A program made the position numbers and the translations under genes. A DNA stretch of 46,857 nt from a bacterium. GTDB lineage: Bacteria; Chloroflexota; Dormibacteria; Aeolococcales; Aeolococcaceae. Below are positions 15,750 through 19,254 of this stretch, piece after piece. Within the stretch, counting starts at the first letter, position 1, and every line of letters begins with the position of its first letter. The stretch lies in contig JAJZLL010000021.1 in NCBI GenBank assembly GCA_021803465.1, positions 1 to 46,857 on the forward strand, read 5' to 3'. Under the pieces are notes generated by a model. That model did not search any database. It had not been told where the DNA came from and saw nothing but the letters and a program-made list of their open reading frames with translations.

Positions 15750-16466
15750 ATGCCACACCGACTCATCCTCGCTTCGGACTATGACGGCACACTTGCTGAG
15801 CACGGCGTCCTGTCCGCGGATACAGTTGCAGCACTCAAGGCGTTCAAGAATGCTGGAGGCGTCCTCATTCTTGTCACGGGACGGGACATGCAGGACATTG
15901 CAGGTGAAGGAAGACCCCCCATGACTCCGCATCTTGGTCTTTTTGACTGTGTTGTCGCCGAGAACGGGGCAGTCCTCTGGGATCCCAGATCGGGCACGGA
16001 AGAACGCACATCCAGGCCCATTCCCGATGCCTGGAGGAATGCGCTCTGCGTACGGTTTCCGAACATGTTTGCAGGACATGAGATCCTATCCATTCCCACC
16101 GCATATGAGAAGCAGGTGCGCACTTTTCTCAAGGATCAGGGGATCGACATGAAGTGTGAGCGGAATGTGGGATCCCTCATGCTCACCATGCCAGGCGTCG
16201 ACAAGGCTTCGGGGCTTCGGGCAGCAGCGCGTCGTCTTCATGTGGATCTGCGCGATGCAGTGGGCGTGGGAGATGGCGAAAATGATGCAGCACTTCTTGG
16301 GTCAGTGGGTACAGCAGTCGCAGTGGCAAACGCGCATCCAGATGTGAAGCGCATTGCGGACTATGTCACTGCAGGACAGGCTGGAGCCGGTATCAGGGAG
16401 CTTCTCGCCCTCATGGTCGAGGGGAAGCTTCCGGGTCTCAGGGGAAAGGGAGCAGGGCTCGCCTAG
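15750..16466 (+). CDS. HAD phosphatase, Cof type (subfamily IIB)
   Basis: 238-residue phosphatase. Motif I is ASDYDGTLAEHG (residues 8-19), motif II ILVTGRDMQDI, then the IIB-type cap containing VVAENGAVL, the conserved lysine in GVDKASGL and motif IV GVGDGENDAALL with the downstream VAVANAHPDVK. Related enzymes remove phosphate from phosphoglycolate, sucrose phosphate or mannosyl/glucosyl-3-phosphoglycerate. The last is interesting beside the glycosylglycerate hydrolase, but no sequence feature proves it. The ATG at 15750 is chosen because motif I follows at the normal distance; the frame is open upstream. Its TAG stop is the insertion site of the IS481-family element, so the protein is intact. 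Confidence 0.85.
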   Translation: MPHRLILASDYDGTLAEHGVLSADTVAALKAFKNAGGVLILVTGRDMQDIAGEGRPPMTPHLGLFDCVVAENGAVLWDPRSGTEERTSRPIPDAWRNALCVRFPNMFAGHEILSIPTAYEKQVRTFLKDQGIDMKCERNVGSLMLTMPGVDKASGLRAAARRLHVDLRDAVGVGDGENDAALLGSVGTAVAVANAHPDVKRIADYVTAGQAGAGIRELLALMVEGKLPGLRGKGAGLA

Positions 16467-16467
16467 G
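16462..16467. repeat. Left target-site duplication CCTAGG
   Basis: CCTAGG abuts the left inverted repeat and recurs at 17493-17498. It fits the NCTAGN target preference and 6-bp duplication known for IS481. The TAG inside it ends the Cof-type phosphatase on the plus strand and the transposase on the minus strand. Confidence 0.75.
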
Positions 16468-17407
16468 TGTAGTGTCTAAACAGGTTGTTTACACGTGAGA
16501 TAGGCGGGGCACCATCCAATGCAGAATGCGCTCTGTGGAAATTGTACCTGTGGATGAAGCCAGCCAGTGCACGTGTCCGTCCTGAGTTGGTGGTGTATGG
16601 TCGTACGTACGCCCATTCATCAGCGAGCGTCCTGTTGAAACGTTCTCCCTTGCCGTTTGTTTGGGGGTGATACGGCTTCGTTCTCCTTTGCTTGATGCCC
16701 AGTGCGGTTCTCGTGTCCTGGAAGTCCTTCGAGACATAGCAGCTGCCGTTGTCGGTGAGTACCGCTTTGACTCGGATGCCAAATGTGCTGTAGTGCTCGC
16801 ATGCACGACGAAGGAAACCGGATGCTGTGGCTCCCTTCTCATCACGAAGCACCTCGACATAGGCCAGTCTCGAGCGGTCGTCGATTGCGACGTGAAGGAA
16901 GTCGTAGCCGACATGAGTTCGCGTGTGGGTCCCACGGCCATGGATCCTGTGACCTCCACCACTCGGTATCCTGCCCAGCTTCTTCACGTCGATGTGGATG
17001 AGATCTCCAGGCCTCTTGTGCTCATATCTGCGGATGGGAACTCCTGTTGGTCTATCCAACCATGACAGCACGTTCATCTCCTCCCGGACCAGCACGCGAT
17101 GGACAGTCGACGGTGGCAGCCCGAGCGTCGCACCGATGCGGAACGGGCCGATCTTTCGCTTTGTCCGGAGCTGCACAATCCGACGAACCTGATGCTGTGG
17201 TGTCTGCTTCGGCGATCTCAGTGGGCGTGAACTCCTGTCAGTGAGACCTGCCGTTCCCTCGGCACAGTATCGACGCCACCATTTGTGCGCTGTGGCCCGC
17301 GACAGTCCCATCTGTCGAGCCACATGGCTGACTGGCTGGCCCTTCTCGATCCGCTTGCACAGAATCCTTCTTCCCAGCGGAGTCAGCGGTGCATTACGAT
17401 GAGACAT
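16463..17407 (-). CDS. IS481-family transposase (DDE integrase fold)
   Basis: 314 residues from the ATG at 17407. An N-terminal helix-turn-helix (VSHVARQMGLSRATAHKWWR) and a second HTH-like segment (PFRIGATLGLPPSTVHRVL) precede the rve catalytic core: first Asp in LIHIDVKKLG, DDRSRLAYVEVL, second Asp in LTDNGSCYVS and Glu in NGKGERFNRTL. The GQPVSHVARQ and YHPQTNGKGERFNR signatures are typical of IS481. No frameshift or stop interrupts it, so it looks functional. The frame is open to 17458, but GGAGG lies just upstream of 17407. Its final codons run out of the element and the stop TAG is provided by the duplicated target. Confidence 0.93.
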   Translation of the reverse strand: MSHRNAPLTPLGRRILCKRIEKGQPVSHVARQMGLSRATAHKWWRRYCAEGTAGLTDRSSRPLRSPKQTPQHQVRRIVQLRTKRKIGPFRIGATLGLPPSTVHRVLVREEMNVLSWLDRPTGVPIRRYEHKRPGDLIHIDVKKLGRIPSGGGHRIHGRGTHTRTHVGYDFLHVAIDDRSRLAYVEVLRDEKGATASGFLRRACEHYSTFGIRVKAVLTDNGSCYVSKDFQDTRTALGIKQRRTKPYHPQTNGKGERFNRTLADEWAYVRPYTTNSGRTRALAGFIHRYNFHRAHSALDGAPPISRVNNLFRHYT

Positions 17408-17492
17408 GGAAACCTCCTTGTTGGTGTTGTATTCACATCCAACTTTGGAGGTTTCCACCTCCTATGTGTCAACAACGTCTATGGACACTACA
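16468..17492. mobile_element. IS481-family insertion sequence, complete
   Basis: The element is 1025 bp with imperfect terminal inverted repeats of about 32 bp (24 matches), both outer ends reading TGTAGTGTC. It is flanked by CCTAGG on both sides and holds one intact transposase. Removing the element and one CCTAGG restores a 20-base convergent gap between the Cof-type phosphatase and an AIM24 gene. Because CCTAGG is palindromic, it could formally belong to the inverted repeat, but then no target duplication would be left. Confidence 0.9.
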
Positions 17493-17498
17493 CCTAGG
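17493..17498. repeat. Right target-site duplication CCTAGG
   Basis: Copy of the hexamer at 16462-16467, directly after the right inverted repeat GACACTACA. Confidence 0.75.
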
Positions 17499-17516: not shown

Positions 17517-18428
17517 TTACCACTGGTGCATTGTCATTGGCGAGTGCTGCGCGAGCATGGTGAGATTTGGAGACTCCCCAGGTTCGGTGACTGACTGGAT
17601 GCCAATCCTCCCTGGGCCGGTTGCGCGGAGCCACAGGTAGCTTGGAAAGAGGGACATCCCGCCAAAGAGTGCTGAGGGTGCACCGTGGGCTGTTTCCAGA
17701 TGCATTGTGAGAAGCACAGTCGAATCCTTGAAGAGGAATGATGAAGGCTGGATGAGGATGGACTCATTCGCCTGGAGGTTCCTCACGAAGCCATTCCCGA
17801 CAGCGTGCATGATGACGAGACCCGGAAGCTCGGATTGGGCAGCAAAGATGTCAAGGAACTGGCCAATGGGAAAGTGGTACTCGACATTGTTGTCCGAGTC
17901 ACGGGTGTTGAACCACGTGGGGGCTGTGACGAAGCTGTAGGTCAGCGAATGGGTCGCAAGAAGGAAAGTGCTCTCCTTGGCCTCAAGGGAGTGTCCAGGA
18001 TGGACAGGAAGCGCGATGAGCTCACCGGGCATTCTCCTTGAGATGCAGAGTCGGCCTGGTCCCTGTGCCTGGGTGAGGAAGACAGGGAGTCCTCCGATGA
18101 GGCGCTTCCAGCCTCCTGGGGGATTCACCTGAGAGAGCTGCACCTGGTCATCCCTCCACAGAAGCACGTGGTGGAGGAAGTCGAGGGCGTCTCCCTGGCC
18201 AACATTTGCCTCGACAACAGGTGCCATCGAACCATGGATCTGCAGCTGGGTATTGTTGCACTGGATGCGGGTCATGCCCTTGATGGGAGGGAGTTCCACC
18301 CACCCTGAGCTGTCCACGCGGAGCCGGATGTCCGTCGGGGCACCGCATGCGGGACATGATGTTGCTGTGCCTGTGGACTGGGTGCCGCACCAGGGGCAGG
18401 TGTATGTTGTGGGAGGATTGGCTGCCAT
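17517..18428 (-). CDS. AIM24-family protein with N-terminal zinc ribbon (copy 2)
   Basis: 303 residues. An N-terminal zinc ribbon (CPWCGTQSTGTATSCPACG) is joined to an AIM24/TIGR00266 beta-helical domain with LLWRDDQVQLSQ, GPGRLCISR, PGELIALPVHPG, LLATHSLTYSF, PGLVIMHAVGNGF, LQANESILIQPSSFLFKDSTV and ATGPGRIGIQS. It is a paralogue of the next gene upstream and contains an insert after SYSF (NTRDSDNNVEYHFP) and a longer tail. AIM24 proteins have no established enzymatic role in bacteria. The frame is open to 18476, but the ATG at 18428 starts directly before the ribbon. The gap to the upstream copy is 10 bases, so they form an operon. Confidence 0.85.
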   Translation of the reverse strand: MAANPPTTYTCPWCGTQSTGTATSCPACGAPTDIRLRVDSSGWVELPPIKGMTRIQCNNTQLQIHGSMAPVVEANVGQGDALDFLHHVLLWRDDQVQLSQVNPPGGWKRLIGGLPVFLTQAQGPGRLCISRRMPGELIALPVHPGHSLEAKESTFLLATHSLTYSFVTAPTWFNTRDSDNNVEYHFPIGQFLDIFAAQSELPGLVIMHAVGNGFVRNLQANESILIQPSSFLFKDSTVLLTMHLETAHGAPSALFGGMSLFPSYLWLRATGPGRIGIQSVTEPGESPNLTMLAQHSPMTMHQW

Positions 18429-18438
18429 GTCCTGCCTC

Positions 18439-19254
18439 CTAGCCTGCGTGGACGTACATCGACTGGATGCCGACACGGCCTGGGCCAGTCATGCGGGCCA
18501 TGTACATGCCCTGACCACCTCCGAACATGCCGCCGCCCTGGATCTTCTGTCGCTCAGCCGTCATGGTGACAGAGGAGTCCTTGTACAGGAATGCTCCAGG
18601 CTCGACGAGAATGGATTCGTTAGGCTGCAGTGTCCGTTCGAAGACATTGCCGTAACCGTGGAGAAGAACGATTCCCGGGTACTGCTGCGTCACGAACCTG
18701 TCCATGTACATGCCCTGCCCCCCATGGAGGATGTTCGCGAGTCCCTGGATCTGGACGAAGGAGTAGGAGACGGTATGCGAGGACATGAGGAATGCATGTT
18801 CCCTGACATCGAGTTCGACACCGGGCTGCAGCGGCATGACGACAATCTCGCCTGTCGCATCACGCGAGAGGGCGAGCCGTCCAGGACCCTGGCCGACAGT
18901 CACACGGAAGGGCATTCCTCCAAAGAGACGCTTCAGTCCGCCAGGGAGGCTCATGGAGCTGATGGCGAGAGCTTCGTCCTTCCACAGGAGTATGTGGTGC
19001 TCGAAGAACACGGCATCGCCCTGTGCGAGTTTGAGCTCGGCAATGGGAACGATCTCGCCTTCGACCTGGCAGGTGCTGCCCTGGCCGAAGTTGATCTCTG
19101 TCATGTCACGAAGCTTGGGCGCCTCCCTCCATCCGGAGTCGCTGACAACATCCGCCACCGAGAGCGGTGCGCCGCAGACCACGCATGTGGTGCGGTCTGG
19201 TGGGTTCTGTGCCCGGCACCAGTGGCAGGCAAGGCGTTGTCCGACAGCTTCCAT
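18439..19254 (-). CDS. AIM24-family protein with N-terminal zinc ribbon (copy 1)
   Basis: 271 residues with the same plan as the downstream paralogue: zinc ribbon CHWCRAQNPPDRTTCVVCG, linker SDSGWREAPKLRDMTEI and AIM24 domain (LLWKDEALAISS, GPGRLALSRDATGEIVV, LMSSHTVSYSF, YPGIVLLHGYGNVF, LQPNESILVEPGAFLYKDSS, TGPGRVGIQSM). Two GGGQGMYM glycine-rich loops (about 192 and 254) are seen here and not in copy 2. It is the first gene of the pair and is divergent from the coiled-coil protein gene. Function unknown; the conserved core suggests a beta-helix scaffold possibly at the membrane. Confidence 0.85.
   Translation of the reverse strand: MEAVGQRLACHWCRAQNPPDRTTCVVCGAPLSVADVVSDSGWREAPKLRDMTEINFGQGSTCQVEGEIVPIAELKLAQGDAVFFEHHILLWKDEALAISSMSLPGGLKRLFGGMPFRVTVGQGPGRLALSRDATGEIVVMPLQPGVELDVREHAFLMSSHTVSYSFVQIQGLANILHGGQGMYMDRFVTQQYPGIVLLHGYGNVFERTLQPNESILVEPGAFLYKDSSVTMTAERQKIQGGGMFGGGQGMYMARMTGPGRVGIQSMYVHAG

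Follow-up and report, generated by a model that had tools for sequence, protein, structure and literature searches.

How can an insertion sequence enter the very end of a host gene and still leave both that gene and its own transposase with a stop codon? The question is raised by a locus in the window, that is, the whole stretch of 46,857 nucleotides that was analysed, where an earlier note had seen an IS481 element inserted at CCTAGG and had proposed that the CTAG within this target provides the stop codons of the transposase and of a neighbouring phosphatase gene. The features of the locus, with their positions in the window, are the following.

15750-16466, plus strand: host HAD/Cof-type phosphatase gene (Pfam Hydrolase_3, 1e-25), with its TAG stop in the target and its frame unaltered by the insertion
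16462-16467, no strand: target-site copy 1, CCTAGG, read from the sequence; holds the phosphatase TAG (plus strand) and the transposase TAG (minus strand)
16463-17407, minus strand: transposase gene, 314 aa, with its ATG at 17407-17405 and AGGAGG just upstream
16468-17492, minus strand: IS481-family insertion sequence (TGT...ACA ends, 6-bp target duplication, Pfam LZ_Tnp_IS481, rve and rve_3)
16468-16490, plus strand: terminal inverted repeat at the transposase 3' end; its minus-strand reading encodes the C-terminus NNLFRHY
17470-17492, minus strand: terminal inverted repeat at the transposase 5' end
17493-17498, no strand: target-site copy 2, CCTAGG, read from the sequence
17517-18443, minus strand: convergent host gene, AIM24-like (Pfam AIM24, 1e-14)

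The element proper is 1025 bp long and carries a single ORF between its TGT...ACA inverted ends. Both tips read TGTAGTGTC(T/C)..., with nine bases exact and 14 of the first 18 in agreement, and the hexamer CCTAGG is identical at either side, forming a 6-bp target duplication of the NCTAGN type. The insertion site and the two hexamers are therefore where the earlier note had put them, but the extent of 16462-17498 that it gave to the element takes in both hexamers, which lie outside the element. The transposase matches LZ_Tnp_IS481 (8e-13), rve (3e-15) and rve_3 (1e-15), its residues D139, D218 and E254 are invariant in an alignment of eight members and by their position are taken as the DDE triad, and its C-terminal motif VNNLxxxYx, encoded by the inverted repeat at the 3' end, is conserved among relatives. 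Judged by its sequence, the element is almost certainly an ordinary IS481-family insertion sequence, from a lineage whose members target NCTAGN, duplicate 6 bp there and obtain their stop from the target.

The transposase frame is open up to the tip of the element, with no stop inside it, and the TAG that closes the frame lies on the minus strand (plus coordinates 16463-16465), wholly within the first target copy. The last codons are CAC TAC ACC TAG; the CAC TAC of the original reading stands, whereas its placement of the tip does not, since the Thr codon ACC straddles the boundary, with A contributed by the element and CC by the target. The phosphatase ends GCC TAG, and its stop (16464-16466, plus strand) falls, as first described, in the hexamer that also holds the transposase stop. 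Homologs of the phosphatase align nearly to its C-terminal end. With the transposase frame open to the tip and the phosphatase frame unchanged, the claim that the element needs no stop of its own and leaves the host stop intact was borne out. Because CTAG is palindromic and presents TAG on both strands, one target copy can stop the host gene as well. The sequence shows that the transposase frame, open to the tip of the element, is closed by a TAG from the duplicated target, and that a host gene which approaches the element from the other side and ends in the same target copy retains its exact 3' end.

When the insert and one target copy are left out, the stops of the phosphatase and the AIM24-like gene are 19 bp apart, one fewer than the 20 bases previously given for this convergent gap. 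Positions 17517-19254 of the window hold two adjoining AIM24-like genes that are 43% identical, the second of which also ends at CTAG (18439), and this gene pair is conserved in genomes of genus g13. An empty site was looked for in the sole congener (G001) and not found: the phosphatase ortholog there has 87% identity and its contig ends after residue 191, inside the gene, and an AIM24 homolog was not found in that assembly.

The next question is whether a stop supplied by the target is a rule among related elements. Relatives were gathered from genomes of the same phylum, from named actinobacterial genomes, and from further copies in ten of the latter. A contig scan with a single transposase protein as query gave no match, and a scan with a transposase alignment gave 80 loci. 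Element ends were located by script and the counts rest on 110 copies with both ends resolved; another 24, which lie close to the end of a contig or have degraded flanks and whose ends were misplaced or unplaceable, were left out. In 106 of the 110, at many different sites, the stop lies beyond the tip of the element at a distance of exactly 5 bp, and 101 copies have CTAG on both flanks together with TAG at +5. In another five, CTAA or TTAG takes the place of CTAG at one side or at both and still supplies a stop at +5; three copies in Mycobacterium rhizamassiliense (L211, L212, L213) have such a target, CTAA or TTAG, perfectly duplicated over 6 bp and with a stop at +5. The remaining four (L042, L043, L048, L152) carry an internal TGA, 27 bp inside the element in three and 9 bp inside in L152. 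They form one group among target-stop members in a quick tree, where long branches leave both their placement and the order in which an internal stop was gained or lost not firm. In a more distant IS481 group (L253) the insertion site is again CCTAGG, and a TAA belonging to the element lies 21 bp inside it. The frequency of the stop at +5 points to more than chance, and the target-supplied stop is common to nearly all close relatives, as a feature of the clade and not of the family. The expectation that other copies would lie at CTAG with their stop in the target is accordingly upheld for the clade of the element (101 copies) and fails for IS481 elements at large, and internal stops were encountered in two other IS481 lineages, that of L042, L043, L048 and L152 and that of L253, but not in the element's own clade.

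The shared use of a single hexamer by two genes has to be seen against the rarity of the motif. The window contains 22 CTAG sites where 172 are expected from base composition, a depletion of about 8-fold, and a 720-kb sample drawn from the genomes of eight high-GC hosts contains 149 against an expected 1950. CTAG is thus depleted by about 8- to 13-fold in these genomes, and most of the surviving sites are found outside genes or at gene ends. With genes called from codon composition by a simple rule, the 99 insertions were divided into 42 (42%) at gene stops, 8 in gene interiors and 49 in intergenic positions, and 142 background CTAGs into 27 (19%) that were gene stops, 40 in gene interiors and 75 in intergenic positions; all of these figures are approximate because the rule missed the phosphatase of the window. 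The excess at host stops corresponds to an odds ratio of 3.1 (p 1e-4), or 2.4 (p 0.007) when gene interiors are set aside, with the proviso that copies from the same genome are not fully independent and that some insertions come from genomes outside the background sample. Multi-copy genomes considered by themselves gave a similar result, with 22 of 48 insertions at stops. With CTAG strongly depleted, and with gene ends holding a larger share of the insertions than of the CTAGs that are left, hits on a host stop are common; as 42% of insertions against 19% of background sites are so placed, the double use seen in the window is unsurprising. The shared stop is a frequent outcome, modestly above what is predicted from the availability of the motif. 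For the host, such a landing is probably mild.

How much should be read into this excess? One could go further and suppose that the CTAG lineage of IS481 seeks gene ends, in that a palindrome avoided inside genes and kept at some stops lets one hexamer stop transposase and host gene alike, and that the excess of 42% over 19% is the mark of a safe-site strategy, or else of an active preference that goes beyond motif availability; this proposal can be put forward only tentatively. The opposite position is that finding a host stop here is pure coincidence with no general meaning. It draws on the fact that host stops account for only about 40% of insertions while many are intergenic, and on the window itself, where an open frame of 150 codons or more terminates at about 10 of the 21 CTAG sites that are not duplicates, so that a random CTAG would often end a frame. 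This position is nonetheless unlikely, given that host stops make up a larger share of the insertions than of the background CTAGs, also after gene interiors are removed.

A different explanation is that the stop is essential for transposition, such that landing at CTAG is selected and the transposase is terminated only there. The absence of an internal stop throughout the lineage, and the stop that even the rare CTAA and TTAG targets provide, would fit this explanation, but lineages with an internal stop share the NCTAGN target and so show the preference without a need for the stop. Moreover, in one copy that lacks CTAG (L030) the transposase simply reads about 20 codons into the flank. That copy (1501-2445) has the inverted flanks TCCCCGCTTGG / CCAAGCGGGGA instead of a CTAG duplication. 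An essential role of the stop is therefore quite improbable. Because the internal-stop lineages use the same NCTAGN target, the target preference is independent of the missing stop; target choice is most likely a property of the transposase, and the lack of an internal stop would have evolved on top of it.

The weakest alternative, also raised in the earlier note, is that CCTAGG belongs to the inverted repeat, so that the element carries and moves its own stop; both ends of the window copy do read CCTAGGTGTAGTGTC, but the idea is virtually untenable in view of a truncated copy in the same genome with GCTAGG, of M. rhizamassiliense copies with CCTAAC or GTTAGA at both sides, and of 72 relatives in which the outer bases vary between copies and match across sides (first base equal in 66, sixth in 69, all six in 64). 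As the outer bases vary among copies and agree within a copy, and as the truncated end has GCTAGG, the hexamer is the target.

The genome has one full copy of the element, and no second full copy was found in it. The truncated copy, on contig C59 (L003 1496-1551), is a 51-bp solo left end that is 98% identical; unrelated sequence follows it near the contig end, and it may represent a truncated copy or an assembly joint. Contig C33 (L002 1501-1810) holds a decayed internal relic, 71% identical and without recognisable ends. An end-like site on contig C60 with one mismatch was discarded, being no more than chance allows in 2 Mb.

What is confirmed is a neat piece of economy on the part of mobile DNA, one that holds across a large actinobacterial lineage of IS481 and not across the whole family. 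For annotation, it means that the transposase stop has to be placed in the target duplication, beyond the element proper, and that such insertions need not truncate the adjoining host gene.

The family takes its name from IS481 of Bordetella pertussis, and the NCTAGN target appears in papers on IS481. IS870 is assigned to another family (IS630-like). Its 1993 report (J Bacteriol 175:3151) states in its title that the CTAG target is needed to generate the stop of ORF1, so that, as far as the title goes, the stop of a large ORF is generated by a CTAG target there as in the window. Within the IS481 family, ISLxc2 (1,105 bp) and ISLxx4 of Leifsonia xyli, described in 2008, are likewise single-transposase elements with stop codons inside the NCTAGN insertion site, a placement that the authors also noted for other family members; they come from another species, and the passages of that paper concerned with them do not discuss host gene stops (PMC2516522). 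The closest parallel to the double use is ISRe46/TnRErm46 of Rhodococcus equi, reported in 2019, an IS481-family element with a 6-bp NCTAGN duplication in which the target TAG ends the transposase and some target genes, such as parB, keep intact stops (PMC6794481). In the pRErm46 sequence, read directly, ISRe46 ends ...CATACA followed by ACTAGG, and the ACTAGG at its opposite end supplies the TAG with which parB closes. ISRe46/TnRErm46 differs from the window element in carrying passenger genes including erm(46), in a transposase of about 42% identity, and in having the host stop in the target copy at the other end, whereas in the window both stops lie in one copy. Because both halves of the arrangement have been stated for ISRe46 (PMC6794481), and the generated stop for IS870 by title (1993), what was noted at this locus is a correct reading of an arrangement that was already known.
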